Assembly (NCBI RefSeq): GCF_024710765.1
Contig: NZ_JANJUE010000168.1
Coordinates: 1 to 58,530 of the forward strand
Direction of reading: 5' to 3'
DNA length: 58,530 nucleotides
DNA from: Pseudoxanthomonas sp.
GTDB taxonomy: Bacteria; Pseudomonadota; Gammaproteobacteria; Xanthomonadales; Xanthomonadaceae
The notes below the pieces were generated by a model, which ran no database searches, was not told where the DNA came from, and worked only from the letters and a program-made list of their open reading frames with translations. Shown piece by piece: positions 3,662 to 9,986 of this stretch; within the stretch, counting starts at the first letter, position 1; each line of letters opens with the position of its first letter. The position numbers and the translations under genes were made by a program.

Positions 3662-4054
3662 ATGGAACGATTCACCGGAGGCTGCCTGTGCGGCGACGTC
3701 AGGCTGGTGGCGACCGGACGCCCCTATCGGGTGGGACTGTGCCACTGCCTCGATTGCCGCAAGCATCACGGCGCGCTCTTCTATGCCGCCGCGATGTTTC
3801 CCGAGGACGCGGTGATCATCGACGGCGAAACCCGCGACTACGCGGGACGGCATTTCTGTCCACGCTGCGGTTCCTCCGTGTTCGCGCGCAGTGCGGACGA
3901 AATCGAAGTGCACCTGGGGACGCTGGATGCGCCGGATCAGCTGATGCCGAGCTACGAAAGCTGGACCCTGCGTCGCGAATCGTGGCTACCGAAATTCCCG
4001 TTCGCGCGTGCGTTCGAGCGGGATCGGCAGACGCCGGGACGGACGGAGGAGTAA
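3662..4054 (+). CDS. GFA-family (CENP-V/GFA zinc-binding) protein
   Basis: A 130-residue protein of the glutathione-dependent formaldehyde-activating enzyme-like family. The family's zinc-ligand cysteines are visible: GGCLCGDVR near the start, CHCLDCRKHHG around residue 28 and FCPRCGSS around residue 69. GGAGGG lies 9 bp before the ATG at 3662, which fixes the start. Real formaldehyde-glutathione activity is shown for few members, so the catalytic role is uncertain. It stands immediately upstream of the frameshifted gene at the island's left edge. Confidence 0.85.
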   Translation: MERFTGGCLCGDVRLVATGRPYRVGLCHCLDCRKHHGALFYAAAMFPEDAVIIDGETRDYAGRHFCPRCGSSVFARSADEIEVHLGTLDAPDQLMPSYESWTLRRESWLPKFPFARAFERDRQTPGRTEE

Positions 4055-4089
4055 CGGGCTCGCCGGGCGCTGCGCAGGAGGATTTTCCG

Positions 4090-4565
4090 TTGGAAGCCGC
4101 GGTCGTGAAACCGTCGAACGGTACGCGCCTCTTCGGGCAGGCGCTCGCCGGCGAGGTGGACATGGTGGAAGTGGCTTCGCTGTATGCCTCCGATTTCATC
4201 GCTGCCGGCCCGACCGGTGTCAGGACCGGAAGGAACGATGGGAAGCTCAGGCAGGCGATGGCGCAGGGATAGCGCACTACCGGGACATCGGCACCCGCGA
4301 CATGCGGATTCGGGGCATCCGCCTTTCGCCCTTCGACGACGTTCATTGCGTGGCGCACGTGGCTTGGACCGCGACCCATGCCCGGGACGATCTCGCAAGG
4401 ACGGTGGTGGATTTCGAGGCGCACTACCTCGTCCTGGGACTGGACGGCGAGGCGAAGGCGTTAGGCTGGATATCCGGCGACGAAGAGGTACTGACCCCGG
4501 ACTTTGTCAGTAATTACTGGTACGGCCAGTGGGGGCAGGTCAAGCCTAATCTGATTCGGTTGTAA
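4090..4565 (+). pseudogene. Frameshifted and 3'-truncated NTF2/SnoaL-like protein gene
   Basis: A TTG start at 4090 with AGGAGG 8 bp upstream opens a frame that stops at 4272 (ends LRQAMAQG). The continuation, beginning AHYRDIGTRDMRIRG and running through VDFEAHYLVLGLDGEAKALG, lies in the frame one base earlier, so a single-base deletion near 4266-4272 would explain the break. The joined product looks like an NTF2-like small fold protein. After ISGDEEVL near 4490 the sequence stops looking like the family and base composition drops, so the last 25 codons are probably island DNA. A sequencing error is the alternative for the frameshift but not for the truncated end. Confidence 0.55.
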
Positions 4566-4738
4566 GAAAATTCCTACACGCATGACGGTTGACATGGCTT
4601 ACACGCTTTGCCATCTTCGATCTATCTGGCTACTTCCCTATTGGGTAACAAAAAGAAGAATAAGAAATGTGCTAATTGCCGTGCTGTCACGGCCCCGGTG
4701 CGCAGGGGAAACTGTGCTTTCAACAAGGAGATGTTGCA

Positions 4739-4996
4739 ATGCGTGAACTCAAATTGAGTGAACTGGATGCCGTTTCTGGTGGCGGCGAGGGAAACAATGG
4801 TTCCGCCCATAATGGTGTCATTGGCGGCCTGATTGGCGGCGCGACTAGCGGCGCAGTGGCTGGTGGCGCCGTCGGAGCATTCGTTGGCGGCCCAGTTGGT
4901 GCTGCCGTAGGCGCAGCGCTAGGTGCTGGAATTGGCGCGGTTGGTGGCGCCTTGGCCGGATATGGATCAAGCGAAGCACCGAAGCAAGCAGAGTAA
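4739..4996 (+). CDS. Double-glycine-leader bacteriocin-like peptide 1
   Basis: An 85-residue precursor. The leader MRELKLSELDAVSGG has the class II bacteriocin/microcin pattern: acidic-hydrophobic LxxxELxxVSGG ending in Gly-Gly, the cleavage site for C39 peptidases. The core of about 70 residues consists largely of Gly and Ala in GxxxG glycine-zipper repeats (GGLIGGATSGAVAGGAVGAF), as in two-peptide and microcin-type pore formers, and has no cysteine. AAGGAG sits 8 bp before the ATG. It is the first gene of the row ending in the exporter and adaptor. Antibacterial activity is inferred; a signalling or toxin-delivery role cannot be excluded. Confidence 0.85.
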   Translation: MRELKLSELDAVSGGGEGNNGSAHNGVIGGLIGGATSGAVAGGAVGAFVGGPVGAAVGAALGAGIGAVGGALAGYGSSEAPKQAE

Positions 4997-5045
4997 TTTG
5001 CTAACTTGGCATATTTCATTGTAATGGCCAAAAAGGAGAACATAT

Positions 5046-5288
5046 ATGCGCGAACTGACTCTGAACGAGTTGGACTTCATCAGCGGTGGTGACGCCCGCG
5101 GGACCTCGTCTGTCGTTGGTGGTGCGATCCAGGGTGGTCTTGCGGGTGCCGCTACCGGTGCAGCGGCAGGCGCCGCAGTAGGTACCTTCGTGGCCCCTGC
5201 GGTTGGTACTGCCGCGGGAGCTGCAATCGGGGCTGCCGCGGGTGGAATTCTGGGAGCCATTGCCGGCGCCTTTGATGCAGCATCGTAA
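5046..5288 (+). CDS. Double-glycine-leader bacteriocin-like peptide 2
   Basis: An 80-residue precursor whose 15-residue leader MRELTLNELDFISGG is nearly the same as that of the preceding peptide. The predicted mature peptide of 65 residues is again dominated by Gly/Ala zipper repeats (GAAAGAAVGTF, GTAAGAAIGAAAGG) without cysteines. An AAGGAG site is 8 bp before the ATG. The near-identical leaders and 49-bp separation suggest tandem duplication and processing by the same C39 transporter downstream. The pair could act together as a two-peptide bacteriocin. No modification enzyme gene is present nearby. Confidence 0.85.
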   Translation: MRELTLNELDFISGGDARGTSSVVGGAIQGGLAGAATGAAAGAAVGTFVAPAVGTAAGAAIGAAAGGILGAIAGAFDAAS

Positions 5289-5309
5289 TTCTGAGTAGTA
5301 GCGTTATCA

Positions 5310-5334
5310 GTGACCAGTCATAGCGACTGGTCAC
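5310..5334 (+). terminator. Perfect 10-bp hairpin between peptide and export genes
   Basis: GTGACCAGTC and GACTGGTCAC flank a 5-nt loop, 21 bp after the stop of peptide 2. No U-run follows, so it is not a classical intrinsic terminator. It may act as an attenuator or as a 3' stabiliser that keeps the peptide mRNA more abundant than the exporter mRNA. That role is inferred. Confidence 0.5.
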
Positions 5335-5361
5335 TCTCTAATCACAGTATTGGGGCTCTCT

Positions 5362-5478
5362 ATGGGTATTGCCAATTTCTCCAGCATAATTGCCGCTTCT
5401 GCGCTTCTGATCTCTGTTATGAACTTCATTGAAATACAGAAGATTAAAAAATCGCTAGGCGATAGAGATAAAAAGTAA
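5362..5478 (+). CDS. 38-residue single-helix membrane peptide, possible immunity protein
   Basis: A small ORF with no recognised family. Residues about 5-23 (NFSSIIAASALLISVMNFIE) would span the membrane once, followed by a charged tail rich in Lys and Asp (KIKKSLGDRDKK). Position and orientation, between the bacteriocin-like precursors and their exporter, are those where immunity genes are often found. The ribosome binding site is weak (GGGG about 8 bp upstream). Codon use is AT-rich like the rest of the island. Immunity is a guess from context; it could also be an export accessory peptide. Confidence 0.5.
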   Translation: MGIANFSSIIAASALLISVMNFIEIQKIKKSLGDRDKK

Positions 5479-5534
5479 TAGTTAAACGATTCTTGTAGAG
5501 GTGGGCGTTCACATATTTTCAGCAAGGACGCGGC

Positions 5535-7658
5535 ATGGAAGCGGTGTTGCAGTCAGAAAGCTCGGAGTGCGCGCTGGCCTGTTTGGCGATGGTGGCTGCC
5601 CACCACGGCAAAAGAATTGGATTACGGGAACTGCGTCAGCGATTCTCTTTCTCCTTGAAAGGAGCAAGTCTTACTCGCTTAGTTTTCGTGGCGGGCCAAC
5701 TAGGCTTTCAGAGTCGTCCGCTTCGCTTGGAGTTGGATGAGCTATCAAAATTGAGCGCTCCTTGTATCCTGCACTGGGACTTGAACCACTTTGTGGTGTT
5801 GGTCAAGGCAAAAAAAAGCCGTATTACGGTGCTGGACCCTGCGTTCGGCAAGCGCGAGTTGAGTTATGAAGAAGCCTCCGGCCACTTCACCGGCATTGCT
5901 TTGGAGCTCACACCCAGCACGCAATTTGAGCGTCAGGAAGCTCCTCCTTCAGTGTCCTTCCGTCAGCTTACCGGTCACGTCACCGGCCTAGGGCGTGCGC
6001 TAGCGTTAATCTTGTTGCTCTCAGTGGCCTTGCAGGTCTTTGTCATCCTGGCTCCGTTCTTCATGCAGTGGGTGGTTGACCAGGTTTTGATTTCAGCGGA
6101 TAGGGACTTGCTCACGGTATTGGGGCTCGGCTTTGGCGTGGCCCTGCTGTTGCAGGTGGGCATCGGTCTGCTCCGAGGTTGGGCGGTGGTGGTTCTGTCC
6201 ACGCGACTGGGTTTGCAGTGGATGGGCAATGTCTTCACCCATCTGCTCAAGTTGCCATTGGACTTCTTTGAAAAGCGGCATCTAGGAGATGTCGTTTCCC
6301 GTATGGGCAGCGTGCAGGCTATTCAGCGCACGCTGACCACCAGCTTCGTGGAGGCTATCATTGATGGACTGATGGCCTTCGTGACCTTGGGCATGATGTT
6401 GCTGTATAGCTGGAAGCTGGCCTTGGTCACGCTACTGGCGGTGGGGCTTTATCTAGCGGTACGAGCGCTTGCGTTCGGTCCCGTTCGTAAGGAGGTCGAG
6501 CAGCAGTTGGTCTCCGCCGCAAAACAGCAGAGCCATCTTCTGGAGTCCATCCGTGGCATACAGTCGGTCAAGGTCTTGGGCGTCGAGAACAACCGGCGTT
6601 CGGTCTATCTGAATCTAATGAACGACACGATCAACCGTGAAGTGAGCTTGGCCAAGCTGGGGTTAGGCTTTATATCCGCAAGTCAGCTCATCTTCGGAGT
6701 CGAGCGTATCGCTGTCATCTGGCTGGGTGCAGCTCTGACCATGAATAATGCTTTCTCAGTGGGCATGCTCATTGCTTATCTGGCCTACAAGGACCAGTTT
6801 GCCGGTCGCATCAGCGGCTTAATCGACAAATGGATTGAGTTTCGAATGCTACGCCTACACGGCGAGCGCTTGGCGGACATTGTGCTGACGCCTCCCGAGT
6901 CATCGGCAGAGCGCTCATTCGAAGGCGCTGATTCCAAGAGTGCGCGATTGGACGTTTCCAACCTGAGCTTCCGTTACGCGGAAGGCGAGCCTTGGATCCT
7001 GCAGGGGTGTAGCTTCTCCGTGGAAGAAGGCGAGGCAGTGGCCATCGTCGGTGCCTCTGGCTGTGGCAAAACGACATTGATCAAGCTCATGCTGGGCCTA
7101 CTCCGTCCGACCGAAGGCGAAGTGTCTCTAGGCACACAAAGCGTCCACCGAAAAAGTGCACACAGTCGCCGTCAGGTGGTTGGGGCTGTGATGCAGGACG
7201 ACCAGCTTTTCGCCGGCAGCATCGCAGAGAACATCGCGCTGGGAGACGAAGGCCACGATTCGATCCGTATCGAGGCCGCCGCCCGCTTGGCGGCCATCCA
7301 TGAGGAAATCGCCGCCATGCCCATGGGCTACCACAGTCTTATTGGCGACATGGGGACTACCTTGTCTGGCGGCCAAAAACAGCGGGTCATCCTAGCCCGG
7401 GCACTCTATCGCCAACCGCGCGTTCTGTTTCTAGACGAGGCCACCAGCCATCTGGACGTAGACAGCGAGCGACGAGTGAACCAAGCCGTGGCGCAACTCG
7501 CGCTCACCAAGGTGATTATCGCCCATCGACCGGAAACCATTGCCAGCGCCGATCGCGTGCTGGTCATGCAGGGTGGGAAGATTGTGCAAGAGCTACGCCC
7601 TAAACGGCAGATACCTAACGCTCCCGTCGAGACCAGCGTTGAGCCTGCATTGACATGA
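5535..7658 (+). CDS. C39 peptidase-containing ABC transporter (bacteriocin exporter)
   Basis: A 707-residue PCAT of the CvaB/RaxB/LagD type that cleaves double-glycine leaders while exporting the peptide. The N-terminal C39 domain has Gln6, catalytic Cys12 (SECALACLAM), His85 (LNHFVVL) and Asp101 (LDPAFG). A six-helix transmembrane domain spans about 150-430. The ATPase shows Walker A at 506-513 (GASGCGKT), Q-loop Gln554, signature LSGGQ at 610-614, Walker B LFLDE at 631-635 and switch His664. All key residues are present, so it should be active. AAGGA lies 7 bp before the ATG. It overlaps the adaptor gene by 4 bp (ATGA), implying coupled translation. Confidence 0.95.
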   Translation: MEAVLQSESSECALACLAMVAAHHGKRIGLRELRQRFSFSLKGASLTRLVFVAGQLGFQSRPLRLELDELSKLSAPCILHWDLNHFVVLVKAKKSRITVLDPAFGKRELSYEEASGHFTGIALELTPSTQFERQEAPPSVSFRQLTGHVTGLGRALALILLLSVALQVFVILAPFFMQWVVDQVLISADRDLLTVLGLGFGVALLLQVGIGLLRGWAVVVLSTRLGLQWMGNVFTHLLKLPLDFFEKRHLGDVVSRMGSVQAIQRTLTTSFVEAIIDGLMAFVTLGMMLLYSWKLALVTLLAVGLYLAVRALAFGPVRKEVEQQLVSAAKQQSHLLESIRGIQSVKVLGVENNRRSVYLNLMNDTINREVSLAKLGLGFISASQLIFGVERIAVIWLGAALTMNNAFSVGMLIAYLAYKDQFAGRISGLIDKWIEFRMLRLHGERLADIVLTPPESSAERSFEGADSKSARLDVSNLSFRYAEGEPWILQGCSFSVEEGEAVAIVGASGCGKTTLIKLMLGLLRPTEGEVSLGTQSVHRKSAHSRRQVVGAVMQDDQLFAGSIAENIALGDEGHDSIRIEAAARLAAIHEEIAAMPMGYHSLIGDMGTTLSGGQKQRVILARALYRQPRVLFLDEATSHLDVDSERRVNQAVAQLALTKVIIAHRPETIASADRVLVMQGGKIVQELRPKRQIPNAPVETSVEPALT

Positions 7659-8902
7659 GCGATGCTCTATTTCGCCACGAAGTATTAAACACCAAGCGGA
7701 TGAGCTGGCTGGGCCGCATCTCATTGGCACAGCCGCTCGGACTTTGGGTTCTGGCTGGAATGGGAGCGCTATGTGCCGCGGCGGTCGTGGCTTTCGGGGT
7801 TTTAGGCGAATACACACGACGTTCAACGGTAACGGGCCAGCTGGTCCCTGACTTGGGGCTGTCGGCGGTAATGTCCCCCACGGCCGGCGTCGTCAGTCGG
7901 TTGTTGCCCGAAGAGGGCGAGCCTGTGCGGGCGGGGGAAGCGCTGGCTCTCATCCAGGTGCCGCGAGCGATGGCCTCAGGACGGGATGCGCTGATGGCCA
8001 TCCGCGAAGGCTTGGATGAACGCCGCGACAGTCTGGAGCAATTGGCGCAATCTCAGCAAGTCCAAATGAATGCGCAACAGATGGGCTTGAGTCGGCAGTT
8101 GACGGGGGCGCGACAAGAGTTGAGCCAGATTGAACGCGAGATTGAAACCCGAAAAGAACAGGTACGCTTGGGCAATGAGACCATCCAGCGCTATCAGAGC
8201 GTGGCCGACGAGAAATATGTCAGCCAGGTGCAATTAAACCAGCAACAGCAGGCGGTGTTGGAACTCGTCAATGCCCAGCAGGCCCTTGAGCGGCAAGCCA
8301 CTGCACTACGGCGTAGTATTGCGCAGTTGGAACAGGCGCTGCGAGAACTGCCAGCACAACGGGGCATCTTGCAGGCCACCGCTCGCCGGGACTTGGCGAT
8401 GTTGGGGCAAGAGCGCGTTCAACAGGAGGCCAGTGGCGAGTTACTCATTAAGGCACCGGTCGCTGGTTTGGTGGCCAGTCGCTTGCTCGAACCAGGACAA
8501 AGCGTGCAAGCGGGACAGTCTCTCATGAGCCTGTTGCCGGAGGGGTCTAGGCTGCAAGCGCAACTTCTCGTACCAAGTCGCGCCGTGGGGTTCATCGAAC
8601 CGGGGGACCGAGTACTGCTGCGCTACCAAGCCTACCCGTACCAGAAGTTTGGTCACCATGGCGGCCGGGTGATTCGGGTCTCCCGCAGTGCGGTTAGCGC
8701 GCAGGCCTCTGAGGGGCAAGTCACGGAACCCTACTACCGGGTGCTGGTGGCCTTGGACCGTCAGACCATCCAGGCCTACGGGAAGCCTGAATCCTTGCGT
8801 CCTGGCATGACGCTGGAGGCCGATATCCTAGGGGAGCGACGCAAGCTCTACGAATGGGTATTGGAACCGTTGTATTCCCTGCATGGGAAGTTTGGAAACT
8901 GA
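7655..8902 (+). CDS. HlyD-family periplasmic adaptor of the bacteriocin exporter
   Basis: A 415-residue membrane-fusion protein of the CvaA/RaxA type, which links an inner-membrane ABC exporter to an outer-membrane channel. It has one N-terminal helix (about 29-50), a lipoyl half-motif (VMSPTAGVVSRLLPEEGEPV), a long Gln/Glu-rich coiled coil (about 110-245), the second lipoyl half (IKAPVAGLVASRLLEPGQSV) and a beta-barrel region. No TolC-like gene is in the window, so a host TolC would be used. Its start overlaps the stop of the transporter gene. Confidence 0.92.
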   Translation: MSDALFRHEVLNTKRMSWLGRISLAQPLGLWVLAGMGALCAAAVVAFGVLGEYTRRSTVTGQLVPDLGLSAVMSPTAGVVSRLLPEEGEPVRAGEALALIQVPRAMASGRDALMAIREGLDERRDSLEQLAQSQQVQMNAQQMGLSRQLTGARQELSQIEREIETRKEQVRLGNETIQRYQSVADEKYVSQVQLNQQQQAVLELVNAQQALERQATALRRSIAQLEQALRELPAQRGILQATARRDLAMLGQERVQQEASGELLIKAPVAGLVASRLLEPGQSVQAGQSLMSLLPEGSRLQAQLLVPSRAVGFIEPGDRVLLRYQAYPYQKFGHHGGRVIRVSRSAVSAQASEGQVTEPYYRVLVALDRQTIQAYGKPESLRPGMTLEADILGERRKLYEWVLEPLYSLHGKFGN

Positions 8903-9212
8903 GGAAAGGAATCGGGCCACATGTTGCCTGATTGCTGACTCGAGGGTACTGTCCAGCGTATTTGGTGCAGCTGTCCAGTTAGTTCGGCGGCAGCGCCCAG
9001 TTTATTTGGCGGCGGTGATCAGATGGCTGGCGGTATGTAGAGGCGTTGCTGAGGCGGCACGGCGTCACGGGATGACGGTTTTTCAAGCGATGCCCGCGAT
9101 CCGATGACGCATCGGGAAAGACGGGGTACTCGCGCCGGTGGCGAGCCGGCCAACGGCGCAGGGACCGAAGCCCCTGCGCTGCTGAGGGCAAGTGCGTGTC
9201 GTCCCTGCGGGC
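8903..9212. other. Island right edge and gap without genes
   Basis: This 310-bp interval between the adaptor and the DUF3011 gene contains the IS21-like end described separately. After about 9017 it contains GC-rich host-like sequence in which I see no gene. Open frames here are short and lack ribosome binding sites. Confidence 0.6.
8950..9016. mobile_element. Remnant of an IS21-family-like transposon end (three iterated repeats)
   Basis: Three diverged 22-23 bp repeats follow each other directly: TGTCCAGCGTATTTGG from 8950, TGTCCAGTTAGTTCGG from 8972 and GCCCAGTTTATTTGGCGG from 8995. Multiple head-to-tail TGTCCAG-type repeats of this length are known at the ends of IS21-family elements, where the IstA transposase binds. 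No istA or istB gene follows. It is therefore either a solo end left by deletion or a look-alike. It coincides with the composition change back to host DNA. Confidence 0.5.
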
Positions 9213-9986
9213 TTACCGCTTGCGGATCTGGGTCAGGGATTGGACCAGTCCGTCGTTGCGCACCATGCACAGGAAGCGGCCCTCGGGATAATCGACGATC
9301 AGTTCGGTGACCGTGTCGTTGACCGGAAGCCGGGTGACCAGCGCGCCTTCGGCCTGGGCGCGCGCGTTGCAGGCTCCCAGCAAGGTCGTGTCCATGCCGG
9401 GACGACTGGCGGGAGGCATCGTGTAGCGGCTGGCCGAGACGTTCTTGAATACCGCGCGGCACCCGTCCTTCACCCACACGGAATGGTGGTACAGGCCCCA
9501 GCTCTGGCCCTGCTCGCAATGAGCCTTGCTCAACTGGCGGATCAGGCGCACATCGCCATGCGTGTCCATCGCGCACTCGGCCTGGCGCTGGTCCACGGAC
9601 TCGCAAGTCACCTCCGTGGCGCCATCGGAGCGGGTTTCGACCCGGGTTTCCCTTGCCATCGCGGCGCCGGACGCGGGCGCTGCCTTGCCCACCGTGCAGA
9701 CCCCGTTCGCGCCCCCTTTGCCGGTATAGGAAAGCTGCACGCTTCCATCCGGCGATGTGCCGAGGGACAGCGTGACCTCGCTCTGTGCGTCCCGGGCTTC
9801 GAAGTAGTTGTCGTTGAAGCGCTTGAGCTGGGTCTCCCGTCCGTTGACGTAAACCGGCCCGCCCTCGTCGGCATGGACCTCGATCGCGCCCGGGCAGGTC
9901 GCGTTGAAGCCCGGTATGGCGGCCAGCGCGTTGCCGGCGTTCCCCAGGGACAGGACAATCGCGCCTGCCAGCATCCATCGGTTCAT
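9213..9986 (-). CDS. Secreted DUF3011-domain protein
   Basis: A 257-residue protein with an N-terminal signal peptide (MNRWMLAGAIVLSLGNAGNALA). The central and C-terminal part from about 125 matches the DUF3011 pattern: VTCESVDQRQAECAMD, then VRLIRQLSKAHCEQGQSWG, then IWV-like VWVKDGCRAVF, with paired cysteines expected to form disulfides in the periplasm. DUF3011 proteins are common in Xanthomonadaceae and have no settled function. The last 65 residues (CNARAQAEG to MVRNDGLVQ) form a separate segment with one Cys. The gene is monocistronic. Confidence 0.8.
   Translation of the reverse strand: MNRWMLAGAIVLSLGNAGNALAAIPGFNATCPGAIEVHADEGGPVYVNGRETQLKRFNDNYFEARDAQSEVTLSLGTSPDGSVQLSYTGKGGANGVCTVGKAAPASGAAMARETRVETRSDGATEVTCESVDQRQAECAMDTHGDVRLIRQLSKAHCEQGQSWGLYHHSVWVKDGCRAVFKNVSASRYTMPPASRPGMDTTLLGACNARAQAEGALVTRLPVNDTVTELIVDYPEGRFLCMVRNDGLVQSLTQIRKR

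Follow-up and report, generated by a model that had tools for sequence, protein, structure and literature searches.

Gram-positive class IIb/IIc two-peptide bacteriocins consist of paired peptides with double-glycine (GG) leaders and GxxxG motifs, with an immunity gene adjoining. In peptidase-containing ATP-binding cassette (ABC) transporters (PCATs), the C39 domain cleaves after the double glycine, and HlyD and TolC complete the channel. Class II microcins (MccV, E492; exporters of the CvaB/MchF type) combine a GG leader, a C39 ABC exporter, and an adaptor, and their export uses host TolC (PMC13174018). The Cdz system of Caulobacter crescentus comprises the toxins CdzC and CdzD (86 and 84 amino acids, aa), the CdzAB type I exporter, and the immunity protein CdzI; cdzI shares an operon with cdzC and cdzD (cdzCDI), and the cdz genes form two divergent operons (eLife 2017, PMC5380434). 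Here, we analyzed a 58,530-nucleotide stretch of Pseudoxanthomonas sp. DNA (assembly GCF_024710765.1, contig NZ_JANJUE010000168.1; hereafter the window, which is contig C346 of a 4.63-Mb draft genome) and describe an island at 4739-8902 that probably encodes an unmodified two-peptide glycine-zipper bacteriocin system of the Cdz-like type, exported via host TolC, a reading to which we assign a probability of about 0.78.

A preliminary description of this DNA had proposed an island of two precursors, a C39 exporter, and an HlyD adaptor. That arrangement was recovered at 4739-8902; the peptides, exporter, and adaptor of its parts list stand, and the small open reading frame (ORF) at 5362-5478 and the hairpin at 5309-5335 were missing from it. 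In order, all on the + strand, the island contains:

4739-4996, + strand: peptide A precursor, 85 aa, a 15-aa leader MRELKLSELDAVSGG (4739-4783) followed by a 70-aa glycine-zipper core
5046-5288, + strand: peptide B precursor, 80 aa, a 15-aa leader MRELTLNELDFISGG (5046-5090) followed by a 65-aa glycine-zipper core
5309-5335, + strand: hairpin AGTGACCAGTC-ATAGC-GACTGGTCACT, with 11 perfect pairs and without a T-rich tail, in the spacer separating peptide B from the small ORF
5362-5478, + strand: small ORF, candidate immunity protein, 38 aa, one N-terminal hydrophobic stretch and then a Lys-rich tail
5535-7658, + strand: C39 peptidase-ABC exporter, 707 aa, with Peptidase_C39, ABC_membrane, and ABC_tran matches
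7655-8902, + strand: HlyD-type periplasmic adaptor, 415 aa (HlyD_3, E 2.9e-18; TIGR01843, E 2.9e-41, under its cut-off)

The two leaders have 11 of 15 residues in common (pattern MREL.L.ELD..SGG), and the cores carry 13 (A) and 10 (B) GxxxG motifs, contain 56% and 62% Gly+Ala, and lack cysteine, which upholds the earlier claims of near-identical GG leaders and cysteine-free Gly/Ala zipper cores. Being 49% identical overall and 44% in the core, A and B are paralogs; the gene for A has an AAGGAG-type ribosome site, in repeat D10. A strict MREL-type GG leader was found in only two of the 326 ATG ORFs of 40-170 aa in the window, both of them here, and in none of 12 first-order Markov windows; a looser GG motif occurs 14 times against a mean of 7.5 in the Markov windows, and by itself means little. 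In Pfam, A and B match Bacteriocin_IIc (E 1.3e-4 and 5.6e-5) and MccV (E 0.01 and 0.0014), all under the curated cut-offs, and peptide searches of plasmids and viral contigs returned no matches. That the zipper ORFs are ordinary membrane proteins or lipoproteins with a coincidental leader, as weak matches to SlyB (E 0.043) and Gly-zipper families might suggest, is hardly credible given two strict leaders adjoining a C39 exporter, none in the Markov windows, and, in relatives, the same leader type before unrelated cores near the exporter.

We read the locus as Cdz-like because both peptides agree with the published criteria for Cdz-like toxins (PMC5380434), the C-terminus of B being barely charged. 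Toxins of this type have 60-151 residues (85 and 80 here, in line with the 86 and 84 of CdzC and CdzD), and their leader ends in G[G/A/S], as do both leaders here with SGG at positions 13-15. Their one or two zippers are flanked, and not interrupted, by proline or charge, as is also the case here, where runs free of D, E, K, R, and P cover residues 18-51 and 53-78 of A and 19-50 and 52-76 of B, with one proline splitting each. A type I exporter lies within 10 kb, the C39 ABC gene starting 0.25 kb and the HlyD gene ending 3.6 kb after peptide B. The C-terminus is polar or charged in A (which ends YGSSEAPKQAE), whereas B ends FDAAS, with one charge only; four of the five checkable criteria therefore apply to both peptides and the fifth clearly to A alone. 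At the level of these criteria, the locus resembles Cdz in having two small glycine-zipper proteins with lengths near 85 aa, whose leaders end in G-G/A/S, adjoining type I exporter genes, a small membrane protein encoded in one operon with the toxins, and no obvious modification gene (PMC5380434). With class II microcins, the locus has in common the GG leader, C39 ABC exporter, adaptor, and probable use of host TolC; unlike them, it has two zipper peptides instead of one, weak E492/MccV scores under the cut-offs, and an immunity candidate downstream of the peptides. It resembles class IIb/IIc bacteriocins in its paired GG-leader GxxxG peptides with an adjoining immunity candidate and differs from them in a Bacteriocin_IIc score under the cut-off and a Gram-negative host with an HlyD adaptor.

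The exporter has the make-up of a PCAT, with ABC membrane and ATPase domains and a C39 domain in which C12, H85, and D101 align with those of PCATs. In alignments with solved C39-domain structures, these residues and Q6 are matched, with the peptidase domain of an AMS/PCAT transporter (6mpz, E 6e-19) as best match, and we take Q6, C12, H85, and D101 to be the catalytic residues; the preliminary description, which had credited the exporter with all catalytic residues, agrees with this alignment, and its HlyD adaptor is present at 7655-8902. Walker A, LSGGQ, and Walker B are intact at residues 506, 610, and 631, and the HlyD start overlaps the exporter end by 4 nucleotides (nt). The exporter shares about 41% identity with plasmid-encoded CvaB and MchF proteins. 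Neither a modification enzyme nor a TolC gene was found among the ORFs of the island in the ORF list and Pfam matches, as had been described before; the genome has 14 OEP (TolC-type) matches, two on each of seven contigs, and three C39 domains. At E values up to 1e-100, the exporter has relatives in 165 of the 395 genomes examined from the family, counting its own, and the best 80 of 588 confirmed loci include Lysobacter, Stenotrophomonas, Xanthomonas, Arenimonas, Nitrosomonas, and Burkholderiales. Since such exporters are common, the island adds to an already known type, and the novelty considered earlier does not extend to the type, which fits the Cdz-like description (PMC5380434). No such system was apparent by title among the papers listed for Pseudoxanthomonas with bacteriocin or microcin, although one may already be in print.

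The same genome contains a second complete GG exporter (contig C46, locus L039, 1891-7778, minus strand), with an ABC protein 57% identical to the one described here and an HlyD protein; an in-match TAG in the C46 exporter match fits the ORF's own stop, 30 nt before the match end. Its GG cargos, of 112 and 58 aa, differ from A and B, and a cargo similar to the 58-aa one occurs in G091 of the same genus (L078). Two further ORFs of L039 weakly match a transglutaminase and a CAAX protease, respectively, each under the Pfam cut-off.

A profile of the two peptides detected another complete pair in genome G054, which belongs to another genus of the family, as well as weaker matches among cargos of other families; many of these weaker matches have no alignment over the leader and probably represent zipper proteins of other kinds. 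In G054, the peptide pair is followed by a hairpin and a 47-aa single-transmembrane (TM) ORF homologous to the 38-aa ORF of the window. A is 62% identical to its counterpart and B 59%, against 34-49% for the cross pairs, so the sequences indicate that A and B are two separate ortholog lines and that the pair is maintained. The earlier reading of an unmodified two-peptide system using host TolC is supported. Comparison of gene order in related genomes, which had been proposed as a check, thus shows A, B, hairpin, and small ORF recurring in order in G054 without an adjoining exporter: none was matched in 14 kb around the cassette, and that genome's exporter, with another cargo, lies 1.35 Mb away in contig coordinates. 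A, B, the hairpin, and the small ORF therefore constitute one cassette that occurs with or without the exporter. The exporter-less cassette of G054 (L202:4470-10261) is flanked by sequences whose translations resemble obgE and uvrA, which we take to be a core chromosomal context.

Out of nine profile matches whose neighborhoods were retrieved, we read eight (G054, G155, G188, G170, G587, G638, G784, and G903; the ninth being L206 of G166), calling membrane-type ORFs in these relatives from their translations; six such ORFs were compared with Pfam, without a match. In four of the eight (G054, G784, G638, and G587), two zipper peptides stand in tandem ahead of a small membrane protein, which corresponds to the order cdzC-cdzD-cdzI of the cdzCDI operon; an exporter lies at the pair in G638 and in G784, in the latter as the translated end of an ABC protein. 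G155, G188, and G170 have one cargo and then a membrane-type ORF, and the G903 match is without a GG leader. In L203/L204 (G155 and G188) and L205 (G170), a zipper-type GG cargo, a hairpin scoring at least 9, and a membrane-type ORF of 123-143 aa stand together, the cargo and membrane-type ORF being probable toxin/immunity pairs; the membrane-type ORFs of L203 and L205 have no Pfam match, and the stretch examined around L203/L204 has no exporter match.

Whether A and B act as a pair bears on a possibility nested within the bacteriocin reading, namely two one-peptide microcins that arose by duplication and have one exporter and one immunity gene in common, with no obligate partnership. The paralogy of A and B fits it, as do the single cargo in 44 of the 61 cargo-bearing loci described below and the single toxin of most Cdz-like systems, only 14% of which encode two (PMC5380434); the separate orthologs of A and B in a second genus, in equal order and with a single small ORF, speak for a true pair, and we regard two independent microcins as unlikely.

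Cargo in the exporter clade was surveyed at 110 non-redundant exporters from 121 loci (the window included; a shared exporter start was counted once). GG-leader ORFs, some of which may be spurious, were found by rule at 61 of the 110 loci, one at 44, two at 15, and three or more at 2. The leader type MREL-x-x-x-E-I/L-x-x-V-x-GG recurs before cores that range from zipper to Pro-rich and Thr-rich, a combination of variable cores and recurring leader that would be expected of polymorphic toxins. Pro-rich GG-leader cargos lie beside the same exporter type in L071, L092, L275, and L279, four of them in tandem in L071 (+2412 to +3126 from the exporter start); as these are neither hydrophobic nor of the glycine-zipper kind, the exporter clade has at least one further cargo class. 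The diversity of clade cargos, the aggregation favored by glycine zippers (PMC5380434), and a Xylella study suggesting that a GG-leader microcin may act in quorum sensing would all fit exported peptides that are not weapons, acting instead as surface amyloid or density signals, as suggested for Xylella double-glycine peptides. Two distinct co-conserved peptides, a small membrane protein directly 3', and fast-varying cores fit toxin and immunity better, so that we consider amyloid or signaling functions rather improbable.

The 38-aa single-TM ORF is the best immunity candidate of the island. Its G054 counterpart (P0002), located by its position in the cassette and not by search, aligns with a local score of 46, which none of 2000 shuffles keeping the hydrophobic/tail layout reached. 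A homolog search of 100 genomes (G054 outside the set) returned the ORF itself and one chance-level match (E 0.993), and a pattern search for similar mini-proteins at the 110 loci turned up, besides the window, two candidates that were not convincing. Small TM ORFs with a ribosome site, whose start lies between 30 nt ahead of and 150 nt past the stop codon of the last cargo, were found at 19 of 54 loci (7 of the 61 cargo loci having been dropped by the start-motif filter) as opposed to 28 of 1080 random positions; with the ribosome-site rule dropped, the counts are 28/61 and 61/1220.

On the reading of a two-peptide bacteriocin system, the C39 domain would cut both precursors behind Gly15, releasing cores of 70 and 65 residues that would leave the cell via the exporter, the HlyD adaptor, and host TolC. 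Outside, the zippers would pack together and insert into the membranes of competitors without the immunity protein, where A and B would probably form a joint pore; killing may depend on contact, and each peptide may need the other. The 38-aa protein would sit in the inner membrane of the producer and protect it. The single-TM mini-immunity candidate and the exporter-less cassette are modest variations on the known type.

Several observations weigh against this reading. The peptides score below the gathering cut-off of Bacteriocin_IIc (PF10439; 22.4 for A and 23.5 for B of 27.1 bits) and below those of MccV (16.8 and 19.6 of 27 bits) and the NCBIfam E492 group (12.5 and 15.1 of 50 bits). No GG-leader ORF is present under the leader rule at 49 of the 110 exporter loci, and some clade cargos (Pro-rich, Thr-rich) are not zipper peptides; the exporter alone therefore does not prove a toxin. 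For the G587 pair, no exporter was found in the surrounding 16 kb, and the strong hairpin lies after its first peptide, not the second. All island genes are codirectional, in contrast to the two divergent operons of cdz, and the 38-aa candidate has one hydrophobic stretch, unlike CdzI with three predicted TM segments, so that it departs from Cdz proper (PMC5380434). Under the ribosome-site rule, a small TM ORF immediately downstream of the final cargo is absent from 35 of 54 loci, and the window itself counts as a miss because the ribosome site of its small ORF is weak.

A further difference from Cdz is the intercistronic hairpin: in the Cdz text consulted, the 3' end of cdzCDI has an antisense RNA, and a hairpin is not mentioned (PMC5380434). 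In the window, the 39-nt stretch with the hairpin is more stable than shuffles (z -5.67, 0/200 as stable), and the 80-nt spacer less markedly so (z -2.05, 11/200). All 11 pairs are kept in the G054 hairpin, two by changes on both sides and two by changes on one side; as a control, shuffles are weak with two sequences (113/500), and sliding the partner destroys the pairing. Most of 20 printed spacers between the last cargo and a small TM ORF contained strong stems of unrelated sequence, after which a rule was fixed requiring, in the 70 nt that follow the cargo stop, a stem scoring 9 or more, with identical cargos counted once and cargos with less than 70 nt downstream left out. By this rule, a hairpin follows 43 of 66 last cargos, in a set that still contains the loci which prompted the rule. 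The counts are 1 of 15 for inner cargos, 97 of 1502 for the ends of long ORFs, and 2 of 405 for shuffles. The 1502 ends include spurious frames; in the stricter set of non-overlapping ORF ends, 61 of 890 have a hairpin, and comparison with the last cargos gives an odds ratio of 25 and a Fisher P of 2.7e-29, which ignores shared ancestry. In a held-out set from the same family (22 new loci of 40), hairpins were found at 15 of 19 last cargos, and in a hand-picked extra set they follow 6 of 7 last cargos (one hairpin being shared by two of these) and 1 of 4 inner cargos, the exception being G587. The rate is 36/49 where exporter identity is at least 58% and 7/17 below. The median offset from the cargo stop is 10 nt, the loop has 4 nt in 25 of 43 cases, and 42 of 43 stems are distinct. 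A hairpin after the last cargo is thus clade-wide, recurring in position and structure and not in sequence, and constitutes the newer and more general result of this analysis; a literature search with limited cover of subscription journals returned no description of such a clade-wide hairpin by title or start of abstract.

At least five T in the next 8 nt were found at 3 of 43 hairpins in the first set and 4 of 15 in the held-out set (7 of 61 control hairpins), and since a T tail is this rare, most clade hairpins are not classical intrinsic terminators. Given their location, the toxin portion of the mRNA may be stabilized or split off: most likely, the hairpin would stabilize the peptide mRNA or separate it from the immunity/exporter part, leaving toxin in excess, and may in this way decouple toxin mRNA from the immunity and exporter genes. 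We tentatively propose, at slightly less than even odds, that cassettes of this exporter clade have a dedicated RNA hairpin that ends the toxin cistron or cistrons and splits the transcript, leaving the toxin portion abundant and the immunity/exporter portion scarcer, so that stoichiometry would be set post-transcriptionally, and that a 38-aa single-TM protein suffices for immunity. We consider it doubtful that the hairpin lacks a special role in the cassette, being simply a terminator, a repetitive palindrome (REP), or a chance structure. Hairpins do follow control ORF ends, a T-rich tail is present in 7 of 58 hairpins, and GTAG/CTAC, the tag of one REP super-family (PMC3733652), lies near 7 of 43; the enrichment at last over inner cargos and control ends, the high rate at last cargos of the held-out set, and the scarcity of T-rich tails in both sets point the other way, as does the distinctness of the stems. 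The stem pattern of the window occurs at one place in its genome, and its hairpin is therefore not a repetitive palindrome.

The GC content of the island in 500-nt windows is 0.48-0.63, compared with 0.61-0.71 in the flanks shown, ranges that touch, and GC at third codon positions (GC3) is 0.47 in A, 0.55 in B, 0.45 in the small ORF, and 0.67 in both the exporter and HlyD, as against 0.77-0.86 in six flanking ORFs; the island is thus AT-richer than both flanks, as described earlier. Because GC3 is lowest in the peptide and small-ORF genes, these look the most foreign of the island. Low GC is the one sign of horizontal insertion of the island, and an empty-site comparison did not show insertion: three of 38 genomes of the genus (its own included in both counts) match the downstream DUF3011 gene, and in G174 (19.9 kb) and G191 (a short locus) apart from DUF3011, the window's first 20 kb gave no alignment. 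Promoter and terminator scans yielded no more than shuffles, and no part of the window matched Rfam at gathering score. Upstream of the island, ORFs 3688-4272 and 4008-4565 overlap and read like one gene split over two frames, either a broken gene or an assembly error; 4107-4562 has no Pfam match above the cut-off. After HlyD, repeated ctgtccag-like motifs at 8903-9190 resemble an insertion-sequence end. An insertion-sequence remnant at 8900-9130 was considered and dropped, with no second copy in the genome and no plasmid match for 8900-9220.

The locus is a clean, testable candidate for a two-peptide bacteriocin of a Gram-negative bacterium, with a probable immunity gene named. The hairpin after the last cargo is a sequence-independent signpost to unannotated GG-peptide toxins across the exporter clade, and it offers a testable idea of how producers may hold toxin above immunity.

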